The notes under the pieces: model-generated
Told to the model about the DNA's origin: nothing
Databases searched by the model: none
The model's input: only the letters and a program-made list of their open reading frames with translations
Shown here: piece after piece, positions 23,847-54,200 of the stretch
Position numbering within the stretch: position 1 is the first letter of the stretch
Layout of the letters: every line of letters begins with the position of its first letter
Position numbers and translations under genes: made by a program
Assembly (NCBI RefSeq): GCF_006716425.1
Contig: NZ_VFOZ01000001.1
Coordinates: 4,278,001-4,342,000 of the forward strand
Length of the DNA: 64,000 nucleotides
Source of the DNA: Actinoallomurus bryophytorum
GTDB lineage: Bacteria > Actinomycetota > Actinomycetes > Streptosporangiales > Streptosporangiaceae
Reading direction: 5' to 3'

Positions 23847-23884
23847 ACGTCCGCCGGTCGCCGTGATTCGCATGAGACATAAAC

Positions 23885-23898
23885 TAGAACACGTTGCA
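23885..23898. promoter_or_regulatory. KstR-type operator TAGAACACGTTGCA
   Basis: TAGAACACGTTGCA fits the KstR consensus TnnAACnnGTTnnA at every fixed position. It lies 32 bp upstream of the GTG start at 23930 of a Rv1533-like oxidoreductase. KstR is the TetR-type repressor of sterol catabolism in mycobacteria and relatives. Confidence 0.6.
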
Positions 23899-23929
23899 GT
23901 TTCGGCCGCCGCGTGCGTACTGTACGGAG

Positions 23930-25042
23930 GTGCGGACACGGGTAACGGAGCTTTTCGGGATCGAGTATCCGATCTTTGCGTTCAGTCACTGCCGCGACGT
24001 GGTCGCGGCGGTGAGCCGCGCCGGCGGCATGGGCGTCCTCGGCGCCCTGTACTTCACCCCCGAGGAGCTCGAGACCGAGCTGGCCTGGATCGACGACCAC
24101 GTCGGCGGCAAACCGTACGGCGTCGACGTCGTGATGCCCGCCAAGTACGAGGGCGCGGACCTCGGCGACGCAGGCGAGATGCTGAGCCGGCTGCAGGGCA
24201 TGATCCCCGAGGGGCATCGCCGCTTCGTCAACGAGCTGCTCGAGAGCCACGGCATCGACCCGCTGACCGAGGAGGGGGCCGGCCACTACCTATTGGGCTG
24301 GACCGACGCCACCGCGCGTCCGCAGGTCGAGGTGGCGTTCAAGCACCCGATCGCGCTGCTCGCCAGCGCGCTCGGCCCGCCCCCGGCGGACGTGGTCGAA
24401 GAGGCGCACAAGCAGGGCGTGACGGTCGCCGGGCTGGCCAGCAGCGCCCGGCACGCGCGCAAGCAGAAGGAGGTGGGCGTCGACATCATCGTCGCCCAGG
24501 GCACCGAGGCGGGCGGCCACACCGGCGAGATCTCCACGATGGTGCTCATCCCCGAGGTCGTCGACGCCGTAGGCCCGGACACCATGGTGCTGGCCGCGGG
24601 CGGCATCGGCCGGGGCCGTCAGATGGCGGCCGGGCTCGCGCTCGGTGCCGAGGGCGTGTGGACCGGCTCGATCTGGCTGACCGTCGAGGAGGCCGACACC
24701 CCCGAGGCGTCGCGCGACCGGATGCTGGGTGCGACCTCACGCGACACCGTGCGGTCGCGGTCGTGGACCGGCAAGCCCGCGCGGATGCTCAAGACCGCGT
24801 GGACCGACGCGTGGGAGTCCGCCGAGTCGCCCGGCACGCTGCCGATGCCCATGCAGTTCATGCTCATCTCGGACGCCCTCAAGCGGATCAACCAGTCCGG
24901 CGCGGGCGAGCTGACGACCTTCCCGGTCGGCCAGATCGTCGGCACGATGAACCAGGTGAAGTCCACCTCACGGGTGATCTACGAGCTGGTCGAGGAGTAC
25001 ATCGAGACGATGGAGCGCCTGAGTTCGATCGTCGAGGACTGA
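23930..25042 (+). CDS. Nitronate monooxygenase (2-nitropropane dioxygenase)-family flavoprotein, Rv1533-like
   Basis: A 370-residue TIM-barrel FMN protein beginning at LFGIEYPIFAFSHCRDVVAA. It has the FMN-phosphate motif AQGTEAGGHTGE, the second glycine motif VLAAGGIGRGRQMAAGLALG, and SRDTVRSRSWTGKPARML near the end. From memory it matches mycobacterial Rv1533 closely, more so than Rv3553 (IpdC), which belongs to the same fold and acts on the sterol C/D ring. Annotated NMO activity is doubtful for this subgroup; an enoyl-CoA or dienoyl-CoA reductase type role is possible. GTG 23930 is chosen as the family's natural N-terminus; GGAG abuts it, which is unusually tight, so a TTG at 23894 cannot be excluded. 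A KstR-type box sits just upstream. Confidence 0.8.
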   Translation: MRTRVTELFGIEYPIFAFSHCRDVVAAVSRAGGMGVLGALYFTPEELETELAWIDDHVGGKPYGVDVVMPAKYEGADLGDAGEMLSRLQGMIPEGHRRFVNELLESHGIDPLTEEGAGHYLLGWTDATARPQVEVAFKHPIALLASALGPPPADVVEEAHKQGVTVAGLASSARHARKQKEVGVDIIVAQGTEAGGHTGEISTMVLIPEVVDAVGPDTMVLAAGGIGRGRQMAAGLALGAEGVWTGSIWLTVEEADTPEASRDRMLGATSRDTVRSRSWTGKPARMLKTAWTDAWESAESPGTLPMPMQFMLISDALKRINQSGAGELTTFPVGQIVGTMNQVKSTSRVIYELVEEYIETMERLSSIVED

Positions 25043-32458: not shown

Positions 32459-34039
32459 TCAGGCCTTCTCGGCGACCTTCCTGGCCCAGCGGTAGTCGGC
32501 CTTGCCCGCGGGCGAGCGCTGGAGCTCGGCCACGAACGCGTACGTGCGCGGGACCTTGTACCCCGACAGGCGGCTTCGGCAGTGGGCGTCGAGGTCGCCC
32601 TGGGACGCCTCGGCGTCCGCGTACAGCTGGACGACGGCGGCGACCCGCTGCCCGTACATCTCGTCCGTCACCCCGGTGACCACCACGTCGAAGACGGCCG
32701 GGTGCCCCTTGAGCACGGCCTCGATCTCCTCGGGGAAGACCTTCTCGCCCCCGGTGTTGATGCACTGTGAGCCGCGTCCGAGGACCGAGACCGTGCCGTC
32801 GGCCTCGAGCGTCGCGATGTCGCCGGTCAGCAGCCAGCGCTCCCCGTCGACCTCGACGAACGTCTTCGCCGTCTTGGCCTCGTCGTTCCAGTATCCGATG
32901 GGGAGGTGCCCGGTCTTGGCGATCTGCCCGATCGTCCCCGAGCCGGGCTCGACCGGTCGGAGGTCATCGCCCAGCACGCGCAGGGACGTGATGTTGGGCC
33001 GATATTTCAGCCCCGACTCGGGCGTCGAACCCTCCACCCCGGACGCGGTGTATCCCGACTCCGACGAGCCGAAGCTGTCGATGATCATCATGTTCGGCAG
33101 CAGCTCGCTCAGCCGTTCGCGTACGGAGCCGGACAGGATCGCGCCGGTCGAGCTGAGCGCGGCCAGGGAGCTCAGGTCGTACGAGCCCGCGGCGATCGCG
33201 TCGACCAGGGGGCGGGCCATCGCGTCGCCGGTGATGCCGAGCGTCAGGACCTTCTCGGTCTCGATCGTGCGCAGGATCTCGGCGGCGTCGAAGCGCCGGT
33301 TGTAGACCACCGACCCGCCCATCCACCAGGAGATGAACGTCGTCATCTGGGCCGCGCCGTGCATGAGCGGCGCGGCGGTCATCATCACCACGCCACCCGA
33401 GCTCCGCGCGGCCTCGATGACCTCGCCGGGCGTCTTACGGGGCTCGCCGTACGGGTTGCCGCCGCCGAAGGCCATGAACAGGTCCTCGCAGCGCCACACC
33501 ACGCCCTTGGGCATGCCGGTCGTACCGCCCGTGTAGATGATGTAGCGGTCGTCGCCGGAGCGCTGCGCGAAACCGCGCGTCGCCGGCGAGCCGGCGAGAG
33601 CGTCCTTGTACGGGACCGCGTGCGGTGAGGTCCCCCCGCTCACGACGCGGTGCCGCAGCGTCGGCGTCCGCCCCGCCGCCGCGGTGACCCGCTCCTCGAA
33701 GTCCGACTCGTACACCAGCGCCACAAGCTGGGCGTCGTTGTAGAGGTATTCCAGCTCGGCCTCGACGTACCGGTAGTTGACGTTGACCGGCACCGCGCGG
33801 AGCTTCAGCGCGGCCAGCACGGTCGTGATGTACTCCAGCCCGTTGTACAGATGCACACCCACGTGCTGTCCGGGCCCGACACCGGCGTCCTCCAGGTGGT
33901 GGGCCAGCCGGTTGGCGTACACGTCCAGCTCGGCGTAGGTCAGCCGCTCGACGCCGTCCGGACCAGGTGCGACGAGGGCTCTGCGGTCCCCGATCGCGTC
34001 GGCCAGAGCTTCGAAAAGGTCGGCGTGGTTGAACTCCAT
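32459..34039 (-). CDS. fadD19: FadD19-like steroid/long-chain acyl-CoA ligase
   Basis: The 526-residue ANL-superfamily enzyme adenylates a carboxylate, then forms the CoA thioester. The P-loop is YTGGTTGMPKGV, the adenine region DSFGSSESG, the hinge LLTGDIATLEADGTVSVLGR and the end RSPAGKADYRWARK. From memory it follows mycobacterial FadD19 nearly throughout (NRLAHHL, VNVNYRYVEAEL, GDAMARPLVDA, YDLSSL). FadD19 activates C26 steroid side-chain acids and is needed for C24-branched sterols in Rhodococcus. ATG 34039 with GAGGAGC is the start. It is the last gene of the five-gene minus-strand operon, 25 bp after ltp3. Confidence 0.88.
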   Translation of the reverse strand: MEFNHADLFEALADAIGDRRALVAPGPDGVERLTYAELDVYANRLAHHLEDAGVGPGQHVGVHLYNGLEYITTVLAALKLRAVPVNVNYRYVEAELEYLYNDAQLVALVYESDFEERVTAAAGRTPTLRHRVVSGGTSPHAVPYKDALAGSPATRGFAQRSGDDRYIIYTGGTTGMPKGVVWRCEDLFMAFGGGNPYGEPRKTPGEVIEAARSSGGVVMMTAAPLMHGAAQMTTFISWWMGGSVVYNRRFDAAEILRTIETEKVLTLGITGDAMARPLVDAIAAGSYDLSSLAALSSTGAILSGSVRERLSELLPNMMIIDSFGSSESGYTASGVEGSTPESGLKYRPNITSLRVLGDDLRPVEPGSGTIGQIAKTGHLPIGYWNDEAKTAKTFVEVDGERWLLTGDIATLEADGTVSVLGRGSQCINTGGEKVFPEEIEAVLKGHPAVFDVVVTGVTDEMYGQRVAAVVQLYADAEASQGDLDAHCRSRLSGYKVPRTYAFVAELQRSPAGKADYRWARKVAEKA

Positions 34040-34064
34040 CGCGCGCTCCTCAAGCGGGGGGTGC

Positions 34065-35222
34065 TCAGGGCCGTTCGGATCCGACGACCCACATCGCGTA
34101 GAACTGCGCACCGCCACCGTACGCGTGGCCGAGCGCCCGGCGGGCGCCTTCGACCTGATGATCGCCGGCCAGTCCGCGTACCTGCTGGGCCGCCTCGGCG
34201 AACCGGATGAGCCCGGAGGCGCCGATCGGGTTGGAGGAGAGCACGCCGCCGGAGGCATTCCACGGGATGTCGCCGTCGAGCGCGGTCGCGCCGGACTCCG
34301 TCAGCTTCCAGCCCTCGCCGTCGCCGCAGAAGCCGAGGTTCTCCAGCCACATCGGCTCGTACCAGGAGAACGGGACGTACACCTCGGCGCAGTCCAGCTC
34401 GCGGCGTGGGTCGGTGATGCCGGCCTGGGAGTAGACGTCGGCCGCGCAGTCCTTGCCGGCCTGCGGGCTCACCGTGTCGCGTCCGGCGAAGACGATCGGC
34501 TCGGAGCGCATCGCGGCGCCGTGCACCCAGGCGGCCGGGTTCGGCGCCTGACGCGCCGCCGACTCCGAGGCCAGCACCATCGCCGCCGCACCGTCGCTGG
34601 ACGGGCACGTCTCCAGGTAGCGGATCGGGTCCCACAGCATCGGCGTCGACTCGACCATCTCGCGCGAGATGCCGGGGATCCGAAGGTGGGCGTACGGGTT
34701 CTTCAGCGCGTTCTGCCGGTCCTTGACCGCGACGAGCGTGCCGATGTGGTCGGGGGAGCCGGTACGCCGCATGTACGCGCGGATGTGCGGCGCGAAGTAG
34801 CCGCCCGCGCCCACGACGAGCGAGGGAGTGAGCGGCGGGTGGGTCGACAGCGCCCAGGTGGCGTTGGACTCGGACTGCTTCTCCCAGGCGACGACGAGCA
34901 CCCGGTCGTGCACTCCGCCCTGGACCAGGCTCGCCGCGATCAGCGCGGTGGACCCGCCGACCGAGCCGGCGGTGTGCACGCGCGTCAGCGGCTTGCCGCG
35001 CGCGCCGAGCGCGTCCGCGAGGTACGCCTCGGGCATCATCACGCCCTCGAACAGGTCGGGCGCCTTGCCGACCACGACGGCGTCGATGTCCTTGAACGTC
35101 AGCCCCGCGTCCTCCAGGGCCCTTAGCGCCGCCTCGCGTACGAGCCCGGCGATGGAGACGTCGGTCCGCTTGGAGCGGTAGTGGGTCTGCCCGACACCGA
35201 TCACCGCGCATGCCTCAGCCAT
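34065..35222 (-). CDS. ltp3: Ltp3-like SCP2-thiolase/aldolase-type lipid-transfer protein
   Basis: The 385-residue thiolase-fold protein has VVVGKAPDLFEGVMMPEAYL, RVHTAGSVGGSTALIAASLV and WDPIRYLETCPSSDGAAAMV. It ends SNPIGASGLIRFAEAA and ALGHAYGGGAQFYAMWVVG. I recognise mycobacterial Ltp3 (Rv3523) from these strings. Ltp3/Ltp4 are not true thiolases; with a DUF35 partner they are thought to be retro-aldolases removing a side-chain unit from sterol-CoA intermediates. They have been linked to C24-branched sterol degradation. The usual thiolase nucleophile Cys is replaced within the GSVGGS segment. ATG 35222 is 3 nt after the ltp4 stop. Confidence 0.88.
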   Translation of the reverse strand: MAEACAVIGVGQTHYRSKRTDVSIAGLVREAALRALEDAGLTFKDIDAVVVGKAPDLFEGVMMPEAYLADALGARGKPLTRVHTAGSVGGSTALIAASLVQGGVHDRVLVVAWEKQSESNATWALSTHPPLTPSLVVGAGGYFAPHIRAYMRRTGSPDHIGTLVAVKDRQNALKNPYAHLRIPGISREMVESTPMLWDPIRYLETCPSSDGAAAMVLASESAARQAPNPAAWVHGAAMRSEPIVFAGRDTVSPQAGKDCAADVYSQAGITDPRRELDCAEVYVPFSWYEPMWLENLGFCGDGEGWKLTESGATALDGDIPWNASGGVLSSNPIGASGLIRFAEAAQQVRGLAGDHQVEGARRALGHAYGGGAQFYAMWVVGSERP

Positions 35223-35225
35223 GGT

Positions 35226-36266
35226 TCATGCCTCCAATACGCACACGAGGTTCGACTGCAGGCAGGGGCCGTACGACGCGTGGGCCAGGGTGCGTCTCGC
35301 CTCGCCGCGGTGGATCCAGCCCGCGGCCTCGCCGACGCGGATCAGGCCGGTCGCCATGACCGGGTTGGCGGCCAGCGGCCCGCCGGACGGGTTGACGCGT
35401 ACGTCGTCGCCGAGGCCGAGCGCCTCGCGCAGGATGAGCTCCTCGTGGCTGAACTGCGCGTGCAGCTCCGCGACCTCGACGTCGCGTGCGCCCGCCTTCT
35501 GTCCGGCCAGCGTGGTCGACTCCGACCGCCCCAGGTCGCGGGCACCCAGCGAGTGCGCCTCGATGCGGTGGTCGGCGCCGCGGATCCAGGCGGGCCGTTC
35601 GCACAGCTCACGCGCCCGGTCGCCGGTCGCCAGCACGATCGCCGCCGCGCCGTCGGTGACGGGCGCGCAGTCGTAGGGCCGCAGCGGCGCGATCTCATAA
35701 TCGTCATCGCCCGGGTCGGGCAGGTCGAGCGCGTACGGGTTGGCGCGCCCGTCCGCGCGGGAACGGGCGGCGACGGCGCGCAGGTCGTCCTCCTTGTGCC
35801 CGAGCTCGAGGTACGCGCGTGCCTGCAACGCGGCCATCGAGACCTGGTCCAGGCCGAGCGGCTCCAGGTAGTAGGGGTCGAGCTGGAGGCTCATCAGCTC
35901 GGGCAGCCCTGACTCGCCGTCGGGCCGTACGACCTGGGACGGCTTGCCGAAGCCGTACACGAGCGCGGTGTCGATGTCGCCGTGCAGCAGGCGGACGTAC
36001 GCCTCGTACAGGGCCCAGGCGGCGTCCATCTCGACGTGGCTCTCGGAGATCGGCGGCCACGCCCCGACCGCGTCGAGCGCGGAGACGAACGAGAACGGTG
36101 CCCCGGCGAGATAGTCCAGCGACCCGGAGCACGTGAAGCCGAAGCGCTTGAGCCCGGTCCGTTCCTTGACCTCACCGATGATCGGAGCGAGGATCTCGAC
36201 CTCCGAACGCCCGGAGTCCTCGCCCATGTGTTCCGTCTGCGCGAACGCCACGACTGCGATGTCCAT
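35226..36266 (-). CDS. ltp4: Ltp4-like SCP2-thiolase/aldolase-type lipid-transfer protein
   Basis: The 346-residue thiolase-like protein starts IAVVAFAQTEHMGEDSGRSE, includes FTCSGSLDYLAGAPFSFVSA and ALVYGFGKPSQV, and ends GGPLAANPVMATGLIRVGEA. It matches the mycobacterial Ltp4 (Rv3522) type. Proteins of this group pair with Ltp3 and a DUF35 zinc-ribbon/OB protein to cleave C-C bonds in sterol side-chain CoA esters. ATG 36266 shares a base with the stop of the DUF35 gene (TGATG), and the ltp3 gene follows after 3 nt. Tight coupling supports a stoichiometric complex of the three products. Confidence 0.87.
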   Translation of the reverse strand: MDIAVVAFAQTEHMGEDSGRSEVEILAPIIGEVKERTGLKRFGFTCSGSLDYLAGAPFSFVSALDAVGAWPPISESHVEMDAAWALYEAYVRLLHGDIDTALVYGFGKPSQVVRPDGESGLPELMSLQLDPYYLEPLGLDQVSMAALQARAYLELGHKEDDLRAVAARSRADGRANPYALDLPDPGDDDYEIAPLRPYDCAPVTDGAAAIVLATGDRARELCERPAWIRGADHRIEAHSLGARDLGRSESTTLAGQKAGARDVEVAELHAQFSHEELILREALGLGDDVRVNPSGGPLAANPVMATGLIRVGEAAGWIHRGEARRTLAHASYGPCLQSNLVCVLEA

Positions 36267-37210
36267 CAGAGGTAGTCCTTGATGTCGTCGAACGGGACGT
36301 CGGGTTCGTCGAGCGGCTCGAACCACTTGATGTTCGTCATGGTCCGGCCCCACTCCTCGCGCGGCCGCCACACCGCGCGTACCCGCATCCCCATCCGTAC
36401 GTCGCCGGCGGGGACGCCCGCCACCAGGGCGACCATCGCGATGTCGGAGCCGTCGAGCAGCACGTACGCCGACACGAACGGCACGTCGGGCGCGCGCGGG
36501 TCGGGGATGTTGTTCACCGCGAACGTCGTGACCGTGCCGGTGTCGGGCACCTCCACCTCTTCGGTGGTGGGAACGCCGTCGACGGGGCACAGGCCCTTCA
36601 TCGGCACGTAGACCTTGCCGCAGACCCCGCACCGGTGACCGAGGATGCGTCCCTCGCCGATGCCGCCGAGGAAGCGGCTGAGCGCGTGACCGGCGCTCAG
36701 CCGGTAGCCCGCCTCGACCGGAGCGTTGATCATGGTGACGTCGGGCCGGAAGGACTCGATGTCCCCGATCGTGCCGGTACGTTCGCCGCGCCACTTGGGG
36801 CGTACGCGCAGCCCGGCGCGCAGCGTCTTCGGCGCCTTGGCGCCTTCTTCGAAGACACCCAGGTCCAGGACGTGCACCATCGCCGTGTCGGCGCCGTCGG
36901 GGGTCAGCAGCGCCCAGGCGAACGGCCTCTCCAGCGGATGGCCCGGCCGGGGCCGCGCCACCCAGGCGTACGCGCCGACGGTGCACTCCGGGCCGACCTC
37001 GACGAACTCCTCGGTCACCGTCTCGCCGTCGGCGTCGTACTCGACCGGCGGGAACAGCACCCGGCCCGAGGCCGCACGTACCCCGACGAGCCGCCCGTCG
37101 CGCAGCTCGGTGAGGAACCGTCCGATGACCGGCCCGACCGAACGCGTGTACCCGCCGGGAAAAGCCAGCGAGTGATCGGCTGCCAGCAGCTGCTCAGATG
37201 GCGGCATCAC
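36266..37210 (-). CDS. Two-module DUF35 (zinc ribbon/OB-fold) protein, Rv3521-like
   Basis: The 314-residue protein has two DUF35-like OB halves: about 20-145 (VGAYAWVARPRPGHPLERPF) and 175-300. The second half starts with a rubredoxin-like zinc ribbon, GHRCGVCGKVYVPMKGLCPV (CxxC and a following Cys). Rv3521 in mycobacteria has the same shape and lies beside ltp4-ltp3. DUF35 modules act as acyl-CoA-binding partners that open the active site of SCP2-thiolase-like aldolases. GTG 37210 or ATG 37207 may start translation; both lie inside the 3' end of the ligase gene, which overlaps by 17 bp. Confidence 0.86.
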   Translation of the reverse strand: MMPPSEQLLAADHSLAFPGGYTRSVGPVIGRFLTELRDGRLVGVRAASGRVLFPPVEYDADGETVTEEFVEVGPECTVGAYAWVARPRPGHPLERPFAWALLTPDGADTAMVHVLDLGVFEEGAKAPKTLRAGLRVRPKWRGERTGTIGDIESFRPDVTMINAPVEAGYRLSAGHALSRFLGGIGEGRILGHRCGVCGKVYVPMKGLCPVDGVPTTEEVEVPDTGTVTTFAVNNIPDPRAPDVPFVSAYVLLDGSDIAMVALVAGVPAGDVRMGMRVRAVWRPREEWGRTMTNIKWFEPLDEPDVPFDDIKDYL

Positions 37211-38750
37211 GGTCCTTCCAGTACGGGTCGCGCAGGCGGCGTTTGAGGAGCTTGCCGTTGGGTTCGCGCGGCATGTGCTCGATGAAGTCGAACGACTTCG
37301 GCCACTTCATCCGCGCCAGCCGGCCCTCCAGCGAGGCGAGGATCTCCTCGGCCAGCTCCGGTCCGGGCGGCACGCCCTCGGCCGGCTCGACCACGGCCTT
37401 GATCTGCTCGCCCCACTCGTCGTCGGGGACACCGAAGACCGCCACGTCGGCCACCTTCGGATGGATCACGATCTCGTTCTCGATCTCGGCCGGGTAGATG
37501 TTCGCCCCGCCGGAGATGATCAGATCGGCCTTGCGGTCGGACAGGAAGAGGAAGCCGTCCTCGGTGAGGTAGCCGATGTCGCCGACGGTGAAGTAGTCCT
37601 TGAGCCGGTTCGCCTGGGTCTTGGCCGCGTCGCCCTTGTACTCGAAGGCGACCCCGGCCATCTTCATGTAGATCGTGCCGTGCGTGCCGATGGGCACCTC
37701 GGCGCCGTCGTCGTCCACGATCAGCAGCTCGCTGATCGGCCAGGCACTGCCGACCGTCCCCGGATGCTCACGCCAGTCCTGCGGGCTCGCGATCGTGCCG
37801 CCGCCCTCGGTGGCCGCGTAGTACTCCCAGATGCAGTCGCCCCACCAGTCGAGCATCGCCTGCTTGATCGGCACCGGGCAGGGCGCGGCGGCGTGGATCG
37901 CCCAGCGCATCGAGGAGACGTCGTAGCGTTCTCTCACCTCGGCGGGCAGCGTGAGCAGCCGCTTGAAGTGCGTCGGCACCATGTGGGTGTTCGTGATCCC
38001 GTGCCGCTCGATGAGCCGCAGGGCCTCTTCGGCGTCCCACCGGTCCATGTAGACGAGCGAGTGCCCCATGTGCAGCGCCGAGCCGCCGAACTGTGTCACG
38101 GCCGTGTGGTAGCTCGGCGAGGTGACCAGGTGGGCGTTGGGCGGCCCCGCGGTGAAGCCGAAGAACGTCAGCAGGAACGTCATCAGCTCGGCGGAGTCGT
38201 CGGGGTCGAGGCCGTTCAGCGCCCGGCGTACGCCCTTGGGCCGCCCGGTGGTGCCGGAGGTGTAGTGCATGGTCGCGCCGGCGGTCCGCTGCTCCGGCAG
38301 GGTGTCCGGCCTGCCGTCGACCAGCTCGCCGTACGGGCGGAAGCCCGCGACCTCGCCGCTGCCGACGGCGAAGCACCGCTGCGGGTCGATCCCGGCGGCC
38401 TCGGCACCTGGTACGCCTTCGCCGGCGTACCGCTCGTGCACGAAGAACGCCTTGGCCTCGCTGTCGGCGACCACGTAGCCGATCTCGGGCCCGGTCAGGT
38501 GCCAGTTGACCGGCGTGTAGTACCAGCCGGCCTGAAGAGCGGCGAGATAGAGCACCAGCCCGTCGACGCCGTTGGGCACCAGGCCGCAGATCCCGTCGCC
38601 GGGCTCCAGCCCGAGGTCGCGCAGGCCGTGCACGAGCCGGTTGCAGCGCGAGAGGAGGTCCCCGGCCTTGTGCGGGGTACCGTCCGGGTCGACCGCCGCG
38701 ACCCAGTAAGGGTCGGTGGCGGCCAAGCGCCAAAAGCCCAGTGATCCCAT
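37194..38750 (-). CDS. Acyl-CoA ligase of the FadD4/bile acid-CoA ligase type
   Basis: The 518-residue ANL enzyme has the P-loop MHYTSGTTGRPKGVRR, the adenine motif EYYAATEGGG, the hinge YFTVGDIGYLTEDGFLFLSDR and the catalytic lysine near the end in REPNGKLLKRRLRDPYW. The last string is typical of FadD4-like and BaiB-like (bile acid) ligases, distinct from the FadD19 gene of the same operon. Two ligases of different type suggest activation of two different steroid acids, for example the full side chain and a shortened or nuclear acid. It is the first gene of the operon, 143 bp from divergent echA19, with a KstR-like repeat between. Confidence 0.82.
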   Translation of the reverse strand: MGSLGFWRLAATDPYWVAAVDPDGTPHKAGDLLSRCNRLVHGLRDLGLEPGDGICGLVPNGVDGLVLYLAALQAGWYYTPVNWHLTGPEIGYVVADSEAKAFFVHERYAGEGVPGAEAAGIDPQRCFAVGSGEVAGFRPYGELVDGRPDTLPEQRTAGATMHYTSGTTGRPKGVRRALNGLDPDDSAELMTFLLTFFGFTAGPPNAHLVTSPSYHTAVTQFGGSALHMGHSLVYMDRWDAEEALRLIERHGITNTHMVPTHFKRLLTLPAEVRERYDVSSMRWAIHAAAPCPVPIKQAMLDWWGDCIWEYYAATEGGGTIASPQDWREHPGTVGSAWPISELLIVDDDGAEVPIGTHGTIYMKMAGVAFEYKGDAAKTQANRLKDYFTVGDIGYLTEDGFLFLSDRKADLIISGGANIYPAEIENEIVIHPKVADVAVFGVPDDEWGEQIKAVVEPAEGVPPGPELAEEILASLEGRLARMKWPKSFDFIEHMPREPNGKLLKRRLRDPYWKDRDAAI

Positions 38751-38850
38751 TGATCCTCCCGGTACGTCGGTCGTACGGAGGTGTCCCAGATCCGCAGTAG
38801 ATCACGTTATCGTTTTGGGGAGCAAGACCTGTCGGATCGGGCGTGGCGAT

Positions 38851-38868
38851 ACTAGAATCCGTTCTTGT
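38851..38868. promoter_or_regulatory. KstR-like inverted repeat between ligase operon and echA19
   Basis: ACTAGAATCCGTTCTTGT has 7-bp arms ACTAGAA/TTCTTGT with one mismatch. Its centre AGAATCCGTTCT is one base from the KstR core AGAACnnGTTCT. It lies 25 bp before the echA19 start and 100 bp before the operon start, so one site could control both. Confidence 0.6.
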
Positions 38869-38893
38869 TTTGACCGGCTTCGGAGGAGTGCGC

Positions 38894-39706
38894 ATGGCGG
38901 AGAGACTGCCGATCAGCACCGCCCACTGCATCGTCGAACGCGACGGCCATGTTGTCACGGTCACGATGAGCCGGCCCGAGGCGCGCAACGCGCTGAGCAC
39001 CGACATGCTCGTGGGCATGGCCGACGCCTGGGCCTACATCTCCGATACCCCGGACGTACGGGTCGGCATCCTCACCGGGGCGGGCGGCCACTTCTGCGCC
39101 GGCGCCGACCTCAAGGCGATGGGCCGCCCGTCGGAGGACCCGCGCGTACGGCAGCGGGCCACGGAGATCACCGACTACCACTGGAAGGGCCTGCTCCGCG
39201 ATTCCCGTCCGACCAAGCCGCTGGTCTGCGCGATCGAGGGCTACGCCGTGGCGGGCGGCACCGAACTCCTGACCGGTACGGACCTGCGGGTGGTCGCCTC
39301 GGGCGCGACGCTTGGCCTGTACGAGGCGAAACGCGGCCTGTTCCCGATGGGCGGTTCGGCGGTGCGGCTGACCCGCCAGATCCCGTACGCGCTAGCGATG
39401 GACATCCTGCTCACCGGCCGCTCGGTCACCCCGGCCGAGGCCCTGGCCATGGGCCTGGTCAACCGCGTGGTGCCGGACGGCGAGGCTTTGACCGCCGCCC
39501 GTGAGATGGCCGACCAGATCGCGGCCTGCGGGCCGCTGTCGGTCCAGGCGATCCTTCTTACTCACCGCCGCACCGAAGGGCTGGACGAGGAGGCCGCGCT
39601 GAAGATCTCCGATGAGATCGGCTGGCCGGTCTTCGCCTCCAAGGACGCCGAGGAGGGCACCTTGGCCTTCCGCGAGAAACGCCCCCCGAACTACACGGGC
39701 GAATAA
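38894..39706 (+). CDS. echA19: EchA19-like enoyl-CoA hydratase/isomerase
   Basis: A 270-residue crotonase. VTVTMSRPEARNALSTDM opens the fold, the oxyanion loop is GAGGHFCAGADLKAM, and the second catalytic segment EGYAVAGGTELLTGTDLRVV supplies the family Glu. It ends EGTLAFREKRPPNYTGE. The pattern is close to mycobacterial EchA19, the steroid side-chain hydratase (22-enoyl-CoA step). ATG 38894 has GGAGGAGT 5-6 nt upstream; a longer frame to 38843 includes the operator and is unlikely. It is divergent from the ligase-DUF35-ltp4-ltp3-fadD19 operon. Confidence 0.88.
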   Translation: MAERLPISTAHCIVERDGHVVTVTMSRPEARNALSTDMLVGMADAWAYISDTPDVRVGILTGAGGHFCAGADLKAMGRPSEDPRVRQRATEITDYHWKGLLRDSRPTKPLVCAIEGYAVAGGTELLTGTDLRVVASGATLGLYEAKRGLFPMGGSAVRLTRQIPYALAMDILLTGRSVTPAEALAMGLVNRVVPDGEALTAAREMADQIAACGPLSVQAILLTHRRTEGLDEEAALKISDEIGWPVFASKDAEEGTLAFREKRPPNYTGE

Positions 39707-41036: not shown

Positions 41037-41642
41037 TCACCGTACGAACACACCGGCGCGGGCGGCGGCTTCGGCGGCTTCGGCCGCGCGGTCGGCGGTG
41101 GCCGCGTCGAGAGGGTCGCCGCTGGCGAGCAGGCGGTAGTACAGCGGCGCTGACACGGCCCGGATGACCTCCTCGGCGTCGGTACCCGCAGGCAGTTCGC
41201 CGCGGTCGATCGCCTCGTCCACGCAGGGCGCCCACTCCTTGATCCGCGTCTCGTAGAAGCGGTGCAGGGCCTCGGCCGTCCGCGCGTCGCAGGTGGCGGC
41301 CGCTATCACCGCGGTGAACAGCGGTCCCTGCCGGGGGTCGGTCAGCGTCTTGCGTACGAGCCGCGCGTTGGCCTTCAGGTCGCCGAGCAGCGAGCCCGTG
41401 CGCGCACGCGGGAGCGACTGCTCGGCCATGTCCGTCAGCAGGTCGGCCACCAGGCCGGTCACGCTGCCCCAGCGGCGGTAGACGGTCGTCTTGCCGACGT
41501 CCGCGCGGCGTGCGACGTCCGCGAGGTCCAGGTGGTCGAAGCCCTGCTCGGCCAGCGCGTCGCCGGCCGCCCGCAGCACGGCCGTCCGCACCCGCGCCGT
41601 ACGTCCCCCCGGCCGGATCGTGCCAGGCTCGTCGCCGTCCAT
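41037..41642 (-). CDS. TetR family transcriptional regulator
   Basis: A 201-residue repressor. The helix-turn-helix is HLDLADVARRADVGKTTVYR after an Arg/Thr-rich arm (RTARVRTAVLRAAGDALAEQ). The C-terminal ligand domain (PRARTGSLLGDLKANARLVR onward) is the TetR_C_16/SCO-type form. It is divergent from an aldo/keto reductase with an 82-bp gap that contains inverted repeats, so the reductase is the obvious target. It is not KstR: it lies apart from the sterol genes and has no KstR box upstream. Confidence 0.88.
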   Translation of the reverse strand: MDGDEPGTIRPGGRTARVRTAVLRAAGDALAEQGFDHLDLADVARRADVGKTTVYRRWGSVTGLVADLLTDMAEQSLPRARTGSLLGDLKANARLVRKTLTDPRQGPLFTAVIAAATCDARTAEALHRFYETRIKEWAPCVDEAIDRGELPAGTDAEEVIRAVSAPLYYRLLASGDPLDAATADRAAEAAEAAARAGVFVR

Positions 41643-47019: not shown

Positions 47020-50000
47020 GTGACCCGCTGGCGTCGTCCTATCGTCTCGTCCCGCCTACGCAGGAGACGGGCCCTGTCGGGTCCGGTCGCGGTCGTGGTG
47101 GCCGCGGCGATGCTGTCGGGTACTGCAGGTGCGACCCCGGCCAGTGCCGCGTCCGGGTCCGCTACTCCGCCGGTGAAGGCGGGAGAGACCGCCGCCCTGA
47201 AGCAGGCGCGCAGTTCGGGCTCTCAGGTCGAGGTCGGCGCGCTGCGGGGCGAGTCCCGCGAGGTGTACGCGCAGCCCGACGGCACATTCGAGGCGGTGGA
47301 GCACCTACAGCCCGTGCGTACCCGCCAGAACGGCAAGTGGGTCGACATCGACACGGCACTGCGCAAGCGTTCCGACGGGTCGGTGTCGCCGGGCGCCTCG
47401 ACGGTGGACCTGAGCTTCAACGGCGGCGGCACCGGGCCGATGGCGACGATGGTCCGGGCAGGCCGGAAGCTGTCGTTCTCCTGGCCGGGCACACTCCCGG
47501 CACCGGTGCTGTCGGGGGCGACCGCGACGTACAAGGACGTCATCAGCGGCGTGGACCTGCAGCTGAACGCGGACGCCGAGGGCTTCTCCGACGTACTGGT
47601 GGTCAAGACCCGCGAAGCGGCGCAGGACCCGAAGCTGGCGCAGCTGAAGTTCACCACGGCCGCCACCGGATTGATCCTGAAAGAGGACGAGGCCGGTGGC
47701 CTGCAGGCGACCGACACTGGCGGCGGTGGTGTGGTCTTCGAGGCGCCCCAACCGATGATGTGGGACTCGGCCACCGGCCCGGCCGCGCCGAAGGCGACCA
47801 GAGCCATGGCCGCGGCGACCGGCGACCCGGCGGACGGAGCAGAGGGATCGTCCCACCGTGCGCCGATCGACGTCCAGGTCGGTTCGGGTGCTGTGACTCT
47901 GACACCGGATCAGACGATGCTGACCGACCCGGCGACGGCATTCCCCGTCTACATCGACCCGGTGTACAAGACTGTGAGTTCTTCGGCCAATTTGATGGTC
48001 TCCAGCGGCGGCTGGAAGGACTACAACTTCAAGGGCGACGAGGGGATGGGGTACTGCCCGTACAGCTACACGAACGACTGCGGTTCCCCGCACAAGAAGC
48101 GGCTGTTCTACCGTATGCCGACCAGCGGTTTCGGCGGCAAGACGATCCTGTCGGCCGAATTCCAGGTCAAGGAGACCTTCGCGCCGAGTTGCACCAACCG
48201 CAACGTCGAGCTGTGGAAGACCAAGACGTTCGGTACGTCCTCCACGTGGGACTCCACGAGTGACAACTGGTTGGAGAACCTGGACCACCAGAGCACCGCC
48301 AAGGGCTACTCCGGCTGCCCGGCCGGCGACGTCATCCTGGACGCCACCAAGGCCATGAAGGAAGCCGCCGCCGGCGGCTGGTCCACCCTGACACTGGGGC
48401 TGAGGGCCAGCACCGAGGACGACCAACTCGCCTGGAAACGCTTCGACGACGACCCCTCCCTGCGGGTGCACTACAACACCCCGCCGCCCCAGCCGAAAAT
48501 GAGCAACCTGACGTCTTCGCCGGGTGGCGCGTGCAAGGCCCCGGCCAGCCCGGCCAGAGTCAATGTGCCGCCCAAGGCGTACGCGGTGCTGACCGACCCG
48601 GACACCGAAGACCCCAACAAGGTACGTGGCCAGTTCCAGGCGGCCTGGGATGACGGAACGGGCTGGGCGCAGCGCTGGACTTCGGCGCTGACCAGCGCCA
48701 AGGCCAGCGGCTCGACGTTCACAGCCACCCTGCCCGCCGGCATCCCGGAGAACACGCCCGTCGAATGGCACGTCCGCGCCTACGACGGCACGAGCTACAG
48801 CCCGTGGAGCTACGCGGGCAACGCCACCGGCTGCTACTTCCTCTACGACCACACCGTTCCGGCCGCGCCGGCGATCAGCTCCAGCGCCACCGACGGGTAT
48901 CCCGAATCCAATCCCGACGACGAGAACGACCCCTGGTACGACGGAGTGGGTCGGTACGGGAAGTTCACCCTGACGCCCTCCGACCCCGACGTGACGAAGT
49001 ACCAGTGGGGCGTCAACGGCGACCCGACCTCGGCGCATCAGGCGACCGTGACCGCGGGCGCGCCGGCCACCATCGACGTGATGCCCGAGACCGCCGGCCC
49101 GAACTACCTGAGCGTCAAGGCGATCGACGCCACCGGGAACACCAGCGCGACGGCGACCTACTACTTCCGCGTCAAGGCAGGCGCGGACGCCAAGGCCACT
49201 TACGCCCTGGACGAGCCGGTCGACTCGCCCCAGATCAAGGACACCAACGGCGCCAACCCGGCGGACGTGCACGGCGGGGCCACACTCGGCGTCGACGGCA
49301 TGGTCGGCAAGGGGATGGAGTTGAACGGCACCGACGGCTATGCCTCGACGAGCGCTCCCCTGCTCGACACGACGAAGAGCTTCGCGGTGTCGGCCTGGGC
49401 ACGACTCACCGCGACCAAGCCCGACCACGCCGGGATCATCGCGACGCAGGCCGGCGCGCAGAAGAGCGGCTTCGAGCTGTACTACTCCTCCGCGCTCGAC
49501 CGGTGGGCATTCAACCGGTACACGAGCGACACCACCGACCAGACCCTCGTACGGGCCGTGTCGGCCACCGCTCCACAGGGCGGGGCATGGACCCATCTGG
49601 TCGGGGTCTACGACGCGGTCGCCAAGACCCTGAGCCTGTACGTCAACGGCACACTCGCACAGACCGTCCCTTACACAACCCCGTGGAACGCCACCGGCGG
49701 CCTGCAGATCGGCGTCGGGTCCTATGGCGGCGTACCCGGGAGCTTCTTCTCCGGTGACCTGGACGACGTCCATGTCTTCGACCGGGTCGTGACCGACGAG
49801 GAGGCTCGGAACCTGTTCACCCAGCGGCCGGTGGTGGCGGCCCGCTACAAGTTGAACGACGCCACCTCGACCGTACGTACGGCGAAGGCGTACTGGAAGC
49901 TGGACGAAGCCGCGGGCGCCACCCAGGCCGTCGACGCTCAGGGGGCGTTCCCGGCCGGCGCGCACGGTGGGGTGACGTTCGGGGGCACGGGCAAGGTCGG

Positions 50001-51201
50001 CAAGGCGATGCAGCTGAACGGCTCCACCGGCTATGCCGCGACCTCGGGACCGGTCGTCGACACCACGAAGAGCTTCAGCGTCTCGGCATGGGTCAAACTC
50101 GCGGCCAAGTCGGCCACCCCGATCATCCTCAGCCAGGAGGGCAGCCGCGGCTCGGCGTTCGCGCTGTATTACTCGGCCACCTACGACCGGTGGATCTTCA
50201 ACATGCAGACCCCAGACTCGGACACCCCCACCTACATCAGAGCCCAGTCGACCCAGCCGCCGGTACTCAACACCTGGACGCATCTGACGGGCGTGTACGA
50301 CTCGGACGCCCAACAGATCCGCCTGTACGCCGACGGAAAACTGCAGCAGACCGTCGCCCAGCCCAACACCTGGGCCAGTACCGGTCCATTGAACCTAGGC
50401 CGGTTCAAGACCAAGGGCACCTACGTCAGCTACCTGAACGGCGCACTCGACGACGTCCGTGTCTTCGACCAGCCCCTGACCGACTCCGAGGCCGCCCAGC
50501 TCGCCGGCGGAGCCCCGAGCTCGGTCATCACCAGCGCCGACGACACGCTCGGCGGTCACCACGTCAGCCTGTTCGGTAACGCCTACGTCGACCAGGGCCT
50601 CGGCTGGGTGGGGAACCCACCCGGCGGCATGGTGCTGGACGGCGACGGCGACTACGCCGCGACCACGGGCCCTGTCGTCCACACCGACCAGAGCTTCACC
50701 GTCGCCGGCTGGGTCCAGACCCCGGGAAGGCCGACAAAGAACGCCGCCGTGTTCAGCCAGGAAGGCAACGTCAACAGCGCCTTCACCCTCCGCTACACCC
50801 CCGACCCGGACGATCAGGCGAATGCCGGCGGCTACCAGATCGACATGCCGGACAAGGACGCCACAGGCGAGACTCATCAGGTCGCCGCACATCCCGCATT
50901 TCAGTCCAATGGCGATTGGGACCATGTCGCAATCGTCTATGACGCGTTCGCCGACGAGATGAGCCTTTACGTAAATGGCGAGCTCGAACAGAGTGAAGAC
51001 GGCCCGGTCTCCTATCGCAGTAACACACTTGCATTTGACGCGATCAAGGCGTTCCAGATCGGTCGTACCAAGACTGACGGAACCTACGGCGAGTACTGGC
51101 CAGGCGTGATCGACGACGTTTGGATCCTCAATGGTGTCGCCAGCGACGATCAGATAGTAAGGCTCGCCAATGGCACCGAGCTTGCCGTCGGCGCCCTATA
51201 A
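47020..51201 (+). CDS. Large secreted protein with three LamG/concanavalin-like domains
   Basis: The 1393-residue precursor has a long Arg-rich signal peptide (to about 45), a beta-rich region to about 500 with PVYIDPVYKTVSSSANLMVS, an Ig/fibronectin-like part and three LamG jelly rolls (about 753-930, 980-1162, 1180-1383). Each has an N-x-D/TGYA-TSGP-VDTTKSF-VSAW core. This is the protein that in many actinomycetes precedes an RHS toxin gene, perhaps helping display or target it. GTG 47020 has GGAGG 5 nt ahead. The toxin gene starts 75 bp after the stop. Confidence 0.85.
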   Translation: MTRWRRPIVSSRLRRRRALSGPVAVVVAAAMLSGTAGATPASAASGSATPPVKAGETAALKQARSSGSQVEVGALRGESREVYAQPDGTFEAVEHLQPVRTRQNGKWVDIDTALRKRSDGSVSPGASTVDLSFNGGGTGPMATMVRAGRKLSFSWPGTLPAPVLSGATATYKDVISGVDLQLNADAEGFSDVLVVKTREAAQDPKLAQLKFTTAATGLILKEDEAGGLQATDTGGGGVVFEAPQPMMWDSATGPAAPKATRAMAAATGDPADGAEGSSHRAPIDVQVGSGAVTLTPDQTMLTDPATAFPVYIDPVYKTVSSSANLMVSSGGWKDYNFKGDEGMGYCPYSYTNDCGSPHKKRLFYRMPTSGFGGKTILSAEFQVKETFAPSCTNRNVELWKTKTFGTSSTWDSTSDNWLENLDHQSTAKGYSGCPAGDVILDATKAMKEAAAGGWSTLTLGLRASTEDDQLAWKRFDDDPSLRVHYNTPPPQPKMSNLTSSPGGACKAPASPARVNVPPKAYAVLTDPDTEDPNKVRGQFQAAWDDGTGWAQRWTSALTSAKASGSTFTATLPAGIPENTPVEWHVRAYDGTSYSPWSYAGNATGCYFLYDHTVPAAPAISSSATDGYPESNPDDENDPWYDGVGRYGKFTLTPSDPDVTKYQWGVNGDPTSAHQATVTAGAPATIDVMPETAGPNYLSVKAIDATGNTSATATYYFRVKAGADAKATYALDEPVDSPQIKDTNGANPADVHGGATLGVDGMVGKGMELNGTDGYASTSAPLLDTTKSFAVSAWARLTATKPDHAGIIATQAGAQKSGFELYYSSALDRWAFNRYTSDTTDQTLVRAVSATAPQGGAWTHLVGVYDAVAKTLSLYVNGTLAQTVPYTTPWNATGGLQIGVGSYGGVPGSFFSGDLDDVHVFDRVVTDEEARNLFTQRPVVAARYKLNDATSTVRTAKAYWKLDEAAGATQAVDAQGAFPAGAHGGVTFGGTGKVGKAMQLNGSTGYAATSGPVVDTTKSFSVSAWVKLAAKSATPIILSQEGSRGSAFALYYSATYDRWIFNMQTPDSDTPTYIRAQSTQPPVLNTWTHLTGVYDSDAQQIRLYADGKLQQTVAQPNTWASTGPLNLGRFKTKGTYVSYLNGALDDVRVFDQPLTDSEAAQLAGGAPSSVITSADDTLGGHHVSLFGNAYVDQGLGWVGNPPGGMVLDGDGDYAATTGPVVHTDQSFTVAGWVQTPGRPTKNAAVFSQEGNVNSAFTLRYTPDPDDQANAGGYQIDMPDKDATGETHQVAAHPAFQSNGDWDHVAIVYDAFADEMSLYVNGELEQSEDGPVSYRSNTLAFDAIKAFQIGRTKTDGTYGEYWPGVIDDVWILNGVASDDQIVRLANGTELAVGAL

Positions 51202-51276: not shown

Positions 51277-54200
51277 GTGCGAAAGCGAGCGATGATGTCG
51301 CAGAGCGAGCTTGGGCGCTTCCGGCGCTCCGTGGCATTGGCCGTGACCGTGTTGCTGGTAGCCGTGCTCGGGCCGGGTATCCCCGCTCAAGCGGATGACG
51401 GCTCGGGCCGGCCGGGCGTGCAGCACGCCGACAAGACCGTGAAGGGGCATCAGGTCAAGACCAGGCCCCGCACGCCCGACCCGGCCACGCGGAAACAGGC
51501 GGCGCCGAAAGCCGCCTGGCCCAAGTCGGGGCGTGCCGAAGTCGCTTTGCCGACGGGTCGGCCGAACGCCGGAGCCGTACGGGCGGGCGACTTGCCGGTC
51601 TGGGTTGGTGCCCCGGCGAAGGCCGCCAAGTCCGAGGTGGCGCAGAGCCCGCCGCAGCGAGTCAAGGTCAGTGTGCTGGACCGCAAGTCGTCACAGCGTG
51701 CCGGAGTGAAGGGGCCGTTGTTCACGATCGCGCGTTCGGACTCAGGGCCGTCCATTGGTCGGGTGGGCGTTCAGCTGAACTATTCGAGCTGGGTGAACGC
51801 TTTCGGCGGCTCGTATGGATCCCGACTGCGTCTGGTGCAACTACCGGGCTGCGCGCTCAGCACGCCGCAGCGTCCGGAGTGTGCGAAGGCGACGCCGCTG
51901 GCCACCCGTAATGACACTGCGGCGAAGGTCTTGACGGCTGATGTCGATGCCGCCCCCGCCGCGGCCGGTGCGACCCTGCTGGCCGCGACCGCCGGGGCAT
52001 CCAGCGACAAGGGGGACTACACCGCGACCCCCCTGTCGGCTTCGGCGACCTGGCAGGTCGGTACCCAGACCGGGGACTTCACCTGGACCTATCCGATGCG
52101 CGTGCCACCGGTACCCGGGGACCTGACGCCGAAACTGTCGATCGACTACTCCTCCGGCTCAGTGGATGGCCGTACCTCCAACACCAATGGGCAGCCTTCC
52201 TGGATCGGTGAGGGCTTTGACCTGTGGTCGGGATATATCGAGCGACGGTACAAGTCATGTGGCGACGACGGTGCTCCGAAGGATGAGTTCGGTAATGAGC
52301 CCGGCGATGAATGCTGGGGATATGACAACGCCACGATCAGCCTGAACGGTAAGGCCGGTGAGCTCATCCCTGCCGGAGGCGACACATGGCGGATGAAGGA
52401 CGACGACGGCACCCGCATCCAGAAACTCACCGGTGCCGACAACGGTGACAACGACGGTGAGTACTGGAAGGTCACCACCCCTGACGGTGTCCAGTACTTC
52501 TTCGGAAAGGACCGCCTTCCGGACTGGACCTCCGGCAAGCCGGAAACCGGATCGACGTGGACGGTTCCAGTGTTCGGCGACGATTCGGGCGAGCCATGTC
52601 ACGCCGCGGCATTCGCAGACTCGTGGTGCCAGCAGGCATGGCGCTGGAACCTGGACTATGTCCTGGACCCGCACGGCAACGCGGTCACCTACTACTACAC
52701 GCCGGAGACGAACCACTACGCCCGCGACCTGAAGGCCTCCGACGGCACGGTGTACACCCGGGGCGGTTACTTGGACCACATCGAGTACGGCCTGCGCTCT
52801 GATGATCTGTTCGCCAAGGCTCCGGCGCTGGTGAACTTTGGAGTCTCCGAACGCTGCATCCCGGACACGGACTTCGACTGCGCACCCTCCAAGATCGGTG
52901 ACAACCCCGACCAATGGTGGGACGTGCCCTGGGACCAGAACTGCGACGCCGGCACCGACTGCAAGGACAGCGACCTCAACACCATCAAGGCATCGCCCAC
53001 GTTCTGGTCGCGCAAGCGCCTGACCAGTGTGACCACCCAGGTTCTGAAGCCCGACGCGTCCGGCTACCGGGACGTGGACTCGTGGGCGCTGACACAGGCG
53101 TGGGGGCTGGCCGACGTCGACCGGGATCTACTGCTGGGCTCGATCACCCATACCGGTCTCGCGGGGAAGACACCGGTGACCTTGCCGCCGGTCACTTTCA
53201 ACCATGTCCAGTTGGCGAACCGGGTGGACAAGCTCGGCGACGATGTCGGCCCCTACATCAAGTACCGGCTCGGCACCGTCTTCGACGAGTCCGGCGGGCA
53301 GATCGACGTCAACTATTCGACCCCCGAATGCACGACTGACGCACTCCCGACCCCGGAGACCAACACCAAGCGTTGTTTCCCGACGTACTGGGTGCCCCCG
53401 GACGGGTCAAAGGATCCGAAGATCGACTGGTTCCACAAATACGTGGTCGCCCAGATCGTTCAGAGCGACCGCACCGGTCACGCACCCGACATGGTCACCA
53501 ACTATGACTACCAGGGTGGAGCCGCCTGGCATTTCGACGACGATGACGGGCTGACCAAGGAGAAGTACAAGACGTGGTCGCAGTGGCGCGGTTACGCCAC
53601 CGTCAGCGTCCAGTCCGGCGGCGACAACGACATGCAGACCCAGACCGACCACCAGTACTTCCGCGGCATGGACGGCGACCGCCTCGACAAGGACGGCGGA
53701 AAGAAGGACGTCACCGTCTCCGACGGGGAGGGTGGTACGTACCCCGACGCGGATGCGCGCCAGGGCTTCGAGCTCAAGACCACCAACCATCTCAGTCCTG
53801 GCGGGGCCGTCACCTCCAAGGCCATCAACACCGTCTGGACGCACCAGACCGCTGAGCGCGTACGGTCCTGGGGTACCACCACCGCGAACCTCACTGGCAC
53901 CGCCAGCACCCGTACGCTCACCGCCCTGGACGGCGGGAACTGGCGGGAAACACTGGTCAAGAACACTTTCGACGACACCACTGGCCTCAACACGCAGGTC
54001 GACGACCAGGGGGACACCTCCACCGCCGCCGACGATCAGTGCACCCAGACCGATTACGCGAGCAACACCACGGCGTGGTTGCTCAACACTCCCAGCCGGG
54101 TCGAGACCGTCGCCGTCAACTGCGGGGCCCAGGTCAGCCGGCCCGCACAGGTGATCTCTGATGTTCGTACCTACTACGACGGAGGCGCCTTTGACGCCGC

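Follow-up and report, generated by a model that had tools for sequence, protein, structure and literature searches.

A putative KstR-type-controlled module for removing branched sterol side chains in Actinoallomurus bryophytorum and its relatives

The stretch of Actinoallomurus bryophytorum DNA analysed here (the window; 64,000 nucleotides, positions 4278001–4342000 of contig C1 in a 9.47-Mb genome of three contigs, our G000) contains, at 32459–39706, six genes that point to a module for degrading sterol side chains. Five of them lie on the minus strand in the order ligase-DUF35-ltp4-ltp3-fadD19 and are divergent from echA19 on the plus strand. Gene 1 of this operon encodes a FadD4-like acyl-coenzyme A (CoA) ligase, hereafter FadD4L (38750–37194; 518 amino acids; PF00501 and PF13193), and is followed by genes for an Rv3521-type DUF35 protein (37207 or 37210–36266; 313 or 314 amino acids; PF12172 and PF01796), the thiolase-like subunits Ltp4 (36266–35226; 346 amino acids; PRK07937) and Ltp3 (35222–34065; 385 amino acids; PRK08313), and FadD19, of the steroid-26-oyl-CoA ligase family (34039–32459; 526 amino acids; PRK07798). 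The divergent gene (38894–39706) encodes an EchA19-type enoyl-CoA hydratase of 270 amino acids (PRK07799). Packing is tight: the ligase and DUF35 genes overlap by 17 bp counting from GTG or 14 bp counting from ATG, DUF35 and ltp4 share a TGATG junction, and gaps of 3 and 25 nt separate ltp4 from ltp3 and ltp3 from fadD19. The longest fadD19 reading frame opens at 34258, within ltp3; its likely start is the ATG at 34039, which has GAGGAG upstream. Gene order, strands and junction lengths had all been given by a first-pass annotation of the same DNA, and they proved exact to the base.

The products of fadD19 (PRK07798, 673 bits, cut-off 543), ltp3 (PRK08313, 696 bits, cut-off 514), ltp4 (PRK07937, 505 bits, cut-off 419) and echA19 (PRK07799, 358 bits, cut-off 316) all scored above the cut-offs of their family models. 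In a tree, FadD19 grouped with Rhodococcus and Pseudonocardiales FadD19 at support 94/85, which is under the star level of the tool. A second FadD19-family gene of the genome (C2:167050, 43% identical) was considered as a true orthologue and rejected, as it branches outside the window-plus-Rhodococcus group (94/85), its long-branch placement being unsure.

Like the Ltp2-ChsH2 DUF35 and Sal-Shy DUF35 steroid aldolases, the module combines thiolase-like subunits with a DUF35 partner and has, in Ltp3, a tyrosine at the place of the catalytic base; unlike them, it pairs two unlike subunits with a DUF35 protein that is doubled by fusion, and has YVPF (Ltp3) and mostly H..F (Ltp4) instead of YDHF or YDCY. 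At the position of the catalytic YDHF of Ltp2, YVPF is invariant in 90 of 90 Ltp3 sequences, and the YDHF tyrosine is replaced by histidine in 91 of 91 Ltp4 sequences, H..F being kept in 86. Within seven columns of the alignment position that we take to be that of the nucleophilic thiolase cysteine, no cysteine was present in any of these 90 Ltp3 and 91 Ltp4 sequences, and the second Ltp2 tyrosine was seen in none of them. The roles of YDHF in Ltp2 are described in a passage of PMC12329534. Two modules are fused in the DUF35 protein: PF12172 and PF01796 match its C-terminal half only, but a profile of the N-terminal half matches the C-terminal half (probability 99.7, E 3e-25), and the predicted structure contains two helix-ribbon-OB units (predicted local distance difference test score 84.7, predicted template modelling score 0.53). 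Zinc-ribbon cysteines occur only in the second module; among 51 aligned sequences (that of the window and 50 of the 82 listed from the loci surveyed below), 46 carry them at each of three places in the second half, and all 51 have fewer than three cysteines in the first. Separate genes encode the two halves in three loci (L078, L100 and L104). One DUF35 module per thiolase-like subunit may thus be the arrangement in the complex, a pairing that is our own proposal.

The intergenic region between echA19 and fadD4L contains two KstR-type operator boxes, box 1 at 38850–38869, with one mismatch to the palindrome AACNAGAACNNRTTCTNGTT and 24 nt upstream of the echA19 ATG, and box 2 at 38795–38814, 44 nt upstream of the fadD4L ATG. 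We compared 39 such regions, from the window and from 38 of the 80 loci of our survey, the rest having missed a gene or had a gap of more than 900 bases. The box 1 palindrome occurs with no, one or two mismatches in 22, 14 and 3 of the 39, respectively, and none of 7800 mononucleotide-shuffled regions reached one mismatch or fewer. Box 2 matched its 14-base core with at most one mismatch in 24 of the 39, two mismatches being the best among 1950 shuffled regions. Because the 20-mer was drawn from the same 39 regions, these counts show conservation and not an independent hit, and independent tests weigh more. The core of box 1 resembles the KstR motif TnnAACnnGTTnnA given in a section of PMC1995591, where M. 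tuberculosis KstR is also described as binding the Rv3515c/Rv3516 and Rv3520c/Rv3521 promoters. Over 104 kb around the cluster, just two sites had three mismatches or fewer, one at the echA19/fadD4L promoter and the other at the promoter of a NMO/FabK-like flavoprotein gene (NMO gene). The neighbouring TetR gene (41037–41642) was rejected as the regulator, since only the two closest of the 80 loci (L031 and L032; E 1e-20) were found to have it in the neighbourhood of the cluster.

The NMO gene (23930–25042, plus strand; PF03060; start inferred at GTG 23930) lies ~7 kb past fadD19 and is preceded by a KstR-type operator at 23882–23901, 28 nt upstream of the inferred start, with an exact TnnAACnnGTTnnA at 23885. 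Of 90 ltp4 loci, 55 carry it within the stretch retrieved, and in 47 of these it is no more than 3 kb from echA19; where Rhodococcus and Pseudonocardiales loci show it, it lies beyond the far side of fadD19, on the fadD19 strand. On this sequence evidence we assign it to the predicted regulon as a distant seventh member, which the first-pass annotation had missed. The best structure matches of its product were nitroalkane-dioxygenase and FabK-type enoyl reductases, and enoyl reduction would be our guess for its step.

Gene order was surveyed in the best 80 of at least 575 relatives, one genome per species. Among the matches listed, the nearest named records for Ltp4 came from an Actinoallomurus metagenome-assembled genome (92%), Actinomadura sp. 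DC4 (90%) and Actinoallomurus iriomotensis (84%). The six-gene order of the window recurs in 42 of the 80 loci, five of which have 2.6–3.1 kb between echA19 and the ligase gene, so the arrangement is not due to chance. A second order, that of Pseudonocardiales, fadD19(−) echA19(+) fadD4L(−) DUF35(+) ltp4(+) ltp3(+), was found in 15 loci, and 18 loci had other or incomplete arrangements. The Pseudonocardiales sterol group (Saccharopolyspora, Amycolatopsis and others) thus shares an orthologous FadD4L between echA19 and DUF35, but on the opposite strand and with a separate fadD19 divergent from echA19. In the remaining five loci (Rhodococcus/Prescottella), the set occurs without the ligase in the fetched stretch, in line with the earlier remark that a ligase as first gene lies outside what we take to be the mycobacterial order. 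With the KstR regulon of M. tuberculosis and Rhodococcus (fadD19-echA19 and Rv3521-ltp4-ltp3) the module shares the same enzymes, a KstR-type operator at the corresponding promoters and a divergent echA19. It differs in that fadD19 follows DUF35-ltp4-ltp3 as the last gene of the operon, the ligase is added as gene 1, a single two-box promoter region serves all six genes and the ring genes are on another contig.

Some of the further boxes in the genome lie at other sterol genes. With one mismatch, the box occurs at C1:818250 (beside SnoaL and luciferase-like genes) and C1:1015773, and with two at C1:1027362, C1:1837528, C1:1875543, C1:4301882 (window 23882) and C2:165016; sites with three mismatches were set aside as noise. 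The box at C1:1015773 separates a KstR homologue (C1:1015971–1016561) from an igr-like operon of two acyl-CoA dehydrogenases (chsE-chsE), a MaoC/DUF35 ChsH and ltp2, and that at C1:1027362 precedes FadA5 (630 bits, cut-off 515) and two cytochrome P450 genes. The Ltp2 of this operon matches PDB 6OK1, which we take to be T. curvata Ltp2, with 617 bits. Ring genes were located on C2 at ~31–48 kb, namely KshA (KshA_C, 298 bits, cut-off 23.3), a KstD-family gene (PRK12835, 840 bits, cut-off 837), HsaA (614 bits, cut-off 450, which two genes exceed), an HsaC-like dioxygenase, FadD3 and HsaF/G-type genes. The first-pass annotation had proposed a search of the genome for kstD, hsaABCD and kstR and had counted missing ring-degradation genes against its sterol reading. 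KshA, the KstD-family gene and HsaA all score over their cut-offs; the HsaC-like protein (321 bits, cut-off 450) and the KstR homologue (NF033703, 141 bits, cut-off 280) fell below theirs. A second cluster with KstR-type boxes, at C2:155–169 kb (L018/L019), encodes a FadD19-family ligase, two cytochromes P450, an F420 oxidoreductase and a thioesterase-like protein, and its TetR gene adjoins the palindrome TAGAACACGTTCTA at C2:162780. Two genes for fused double acyl-CoA dehydrogenases, presumably FadE34/ChsE3-like, are possibly further sterol genes. They lie at 291–2471 (plus strand) of the window and at C1:4268508–4270709 (L028:10508–12709), and their products, of 726 and 733 amino acids, are 57% identical; the first half of the 291–2471 product matches the A chain and the second half the B chain of 6WY8 (Tcur3483/Tcur3481). 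No KstR-type box was found near these two genes. A candidate Mce4 uptake gene in the window was discarded: the Mce4_CUP1 match at 63019–63912 (minus strand, 60.6 bits) sits among major facilitator superfamily, aldo/keto-reductase and phosphotriesterase genes, and the scanned neighbours are not mce genes.

To assess distribution, 150 genomes of the order with completeness of at least 90, our own included, were sampled. Ltp4 was present in 79 (five of them under the cut-off, G035, G052, G056, G109 and G131, with G035 and G131 matched in two pieces), FadD4L in 81, FadA5 in 81, Ltp2 in 75, HsaA in 36, HsaC in 26 and KshA above 290 bits in 25. Each of the 79 Ltp4 genomes has FadA5 (against 2 of the 71 others), 72 have Ltp2 and 26 have HsaA (against 10 of 71; Fisher p 0.008), the association with FadA5 being far stronger than that with HsaA. 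At listing limits of E 1e-100 for HsaA, 1e-60 for HsaC and 1e-100 for KstD, by which weaker copies would be missed, 52 of the 79 lack HsaA, HsaC and KshA above 290 bits; most module-bearing genomes of the sample therefore retain the side-chain genes but not the known ring pathway. Five of these 52 ring-less genomes have a weak KshA_C match over the Pfam cut-off (G112, 114 bits; G139, 90; G105, 44; G115, 39; G114, 24), and 13 have a KstD-like gene, over its cut-off in eight; 39 have none. HsaA (E 1e-100) is also absent in 18 of the 31 named genomes among the 80 loci, three of them species or strains of Actinoallomurus and six of Nonomuraea, and in all 16 of the 18 whose intergenic region was measured the box is kept with at most two mismatches. 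Nonomuraea pusilla and Actinoallomurus spadix are examples of relatives that lack HsaA.

Ten ring-less genomes were read directly. KstR and two chsE homologues occur together in all ten, with FadA5 beside them in nine. All 15 boxes with at most two mismatches found in 400 kb lie at module, KstR, chsE or FadA5 promoters, with none in mononucleotide shuffles; the fadD4L/echA19 promoter has one in eight of the ten genomes, and the KstR, chsE or FadA5 promoters in five. That so many genomes retain the side-chain set but lack ring genes was what we least expected from this analysis, and it had escaped the first-pass annotation; such genomes may hold a ring pathway of another kind. Thermomonospora (T. 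curvata), Thermocatellispora and Microbispora are members of the same order. Thermomonospora is named as a holder of ring-pathway genes in a portion of PMC4810484, and Thermocatellispora tengchongensis and Microbispora siamensis are added in parts of PMC8708139 and PMC9782250. In our literature searches, we recognised no paper on side-chain sets without ring genes, or on sterol use by Nonomuraea, Actinomadura or Streptosporangium.

Taken together, the locus is likely to be a KstR-type-controlled module, a known gene set in altered order with an added ligase, for removing the side chains of C24-branched (plant-type) sterols. This assignment rests on sequence, namely the FadD19, Ltp3 and Ltp4 families, the operon packing, the promoter boxes, the KstR homologue, the boxes at the igr-like operon and FadA5, the fused DUF35 protein and the missing thiolase cysteine. 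Together with the ring genes in the genome, it upholds the sterol side-chain operon proposed at first pass. Plant sterols as the substrate would follow by analogy with Rhodococcus and M. smegmatis genetics: in a passage of PMC6273163, Rhodococcus fadD19 and ltp3/ltp4 mutants (Wilbrink 2011 and 2012, as cited there) and an M. smegmatis fadD19 mutant lose the use of branched sterols and not of cholesterol.

Several observations weigh against this assignment. Besides the low scores of the HsaC-like protein and of the KstR homologue, whose NF033703 match is its only NCBIfam match at E 1e-25, the echA19 product scored 338 bits against the EchA19 equivalog model, under the cut-off of 400. Only the longer, order-specific 20-mer is significant, and not the general mycobacterial 14-mer TnnAACnnGTTnnA, which has two mismatches at the echA19/fadD4L promoter, a match equalled by 30% of shuffled regions. 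In our genome, pattern matches with up to three mismatches numbered 36/37 against 31/30 for a reversed control that was not split by mismatch, and two of the sites with two mismatches (C1:1837528 and C1:1875543) adjoin genes without a known sterol role. In the ten ring-less genomes, no box with at most two mismatches was found at the fadD4L/echA19 promoter in two or at KstR/FadA5 in five. A promoter scan found no sigma-70-type promoter. Finally, 53 of the 79 Ltp4 genomes lack HsaA and ten HsaA genomes lack Ltp4.

In the mechanism that we envisage, sterol intermediates would release KstR, so that both transcripts start, and a cytochrome P450 would oxidise C26 for FadD19 to make the CoA ester. 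After desaturation and carboxylation of the branch, the EchA19-type hydratase would add water to give a 24-hydroxy compound. This would be cut in a retro-aldol reaction by a heteromer of Ltp3 and Ltp4, in which each subunit would face a DUF35 module of its own and the invariant Ltp3 tyrosine would be the base. The acid so released would be converted to a CoA ester again by FadD4L, and FadA5, ChsE, ChsH and Ltp2 would shorten the remaining chain to the 17-ketone. KstR release, C26 oxidation with activation by FadD19, and the aldol cut follow published relatives, with the DUF35 pairing and the FadD4L step as proposals of our own.

The FadD4L step is put forward tentatively, as a possible role. 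A passage of the review PMC6678751 describes CoA ligation as mandatory once Ltp3-Ltp4 have made their cut. FadD17, for which the same role is proposed and which by its name belongs to another ligase subfamily, is listed for the step after Ltp3/Ltp4 in a table of PMC7807495 and reported in Saccharopolyspora hirsuta in a part of PMC8708139, so FadD4L need not be the re-activating ligase. Within an otherwise correctly assigned module, it might instead be a ligase for fatty acids in general that became trapped in the operon and serves no fixed pathway step. We regard this as somewhat doubtful. It would fit the absence of FadD4L from the stretch in the five Rhodococcus-type loci and its scores, which are under the cut-off for every one of the 25 models listed (PRK12406, 467 bits, cut-off 701; FadD4, 451, cut-off 850; BaiB, 205, cut-off 650; CasG, 187, cut-off 750). 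Against it, in a tree built from 29 of the 77 cluster-linked sequences plus seven ligases of our own genome, the cluster-linked FadD4L form one clade with support 100/98, the three nearest of the seven paralogues tried falling just outside. Moreover, FadD4L is present in all 79 Ltp4 genomes and in only two without Ltp4, and it adjoins DUF35-ltp4-ltp3 in Streptosporangiales and in an Acidimicrobiia locus (L103), where it again comes first, and belongs to the same gene group in Pseudonocardiales. FadD4L is thus not peculiar to one strain, being common within Streptosporangiales and Pseudonocardiales.

The missing ring genes in 52 of 79 module genomes would also fit a module whose substrate is a branched isoprenoid acid other than a steroid (from a hopanoid, carotenoid or other terpenoid side chain, for example) and whose sterol likeness reflects shared chemistry. 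This is improbable given that the module genomes keep FadA5 without exception and Ltp2 in 72 of 79, that each of the ten ring-less genomes read directly has KstR and two chsE homologues together (nine with FadA5 beside them), and that a section of PMC12329534 describes T. curvata Ltp2 as active on the C3 side chain of steroids. Least probable of all is that the operon handles straight-chain cholesterol or bile acids, with the FadD4/BaiB-like ligase activating a C24 acid such as cholate: BaiB is among the weaker matches of the ligase and Thermomonospora curvata grows on cholate and not cholesterol (as stated in a part of PMC4810484), but the ligase is far under the BaiB and CasG cut-offs and the mutants described above lose branched sterols, not cholesterol.

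Elsewhere, the window encodes an AftD-type arabinofuranosyltransferase of ~1500 amino acids (6330–10835, plus strand; PF11847, 698 bits), a 1393-residue protein with three Laminin_G_3 stretches (47020–51201, plus strand), for which a Toxin_R_bind_N match was rejected as it overlaps the much stronger Laminin_G_3 matches, and a 2032-residue protein with RHS repeats and, close to its end, a pretoxin HINT domain (51931–58029, plus strand).

With an orthologous ligase accompanying precisely this gene set, the CoA ligation that follows the aldol cut becomes testable. The distribution of the module raises a speculative view that we hold to be somewhat doubtful, namely that most module-bearing Streptosporangiales are side-chain-only sterol users, which under KstR-type control would convert the tails to propionyl-CoA and acetyl-CoA through an Ltp3-Ltp4-double-DUF35 aldolase and re-activation by FadD4L, and would not open the C19 nucleus, in the manner of strains engineered for androstenedione. 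If true, the use of the sterol side chain and that of the rings would be separable traits in nature, and attention would turn to wild strains in which plant sterols may be converted to 17-ketosteroids with no engineering needed.

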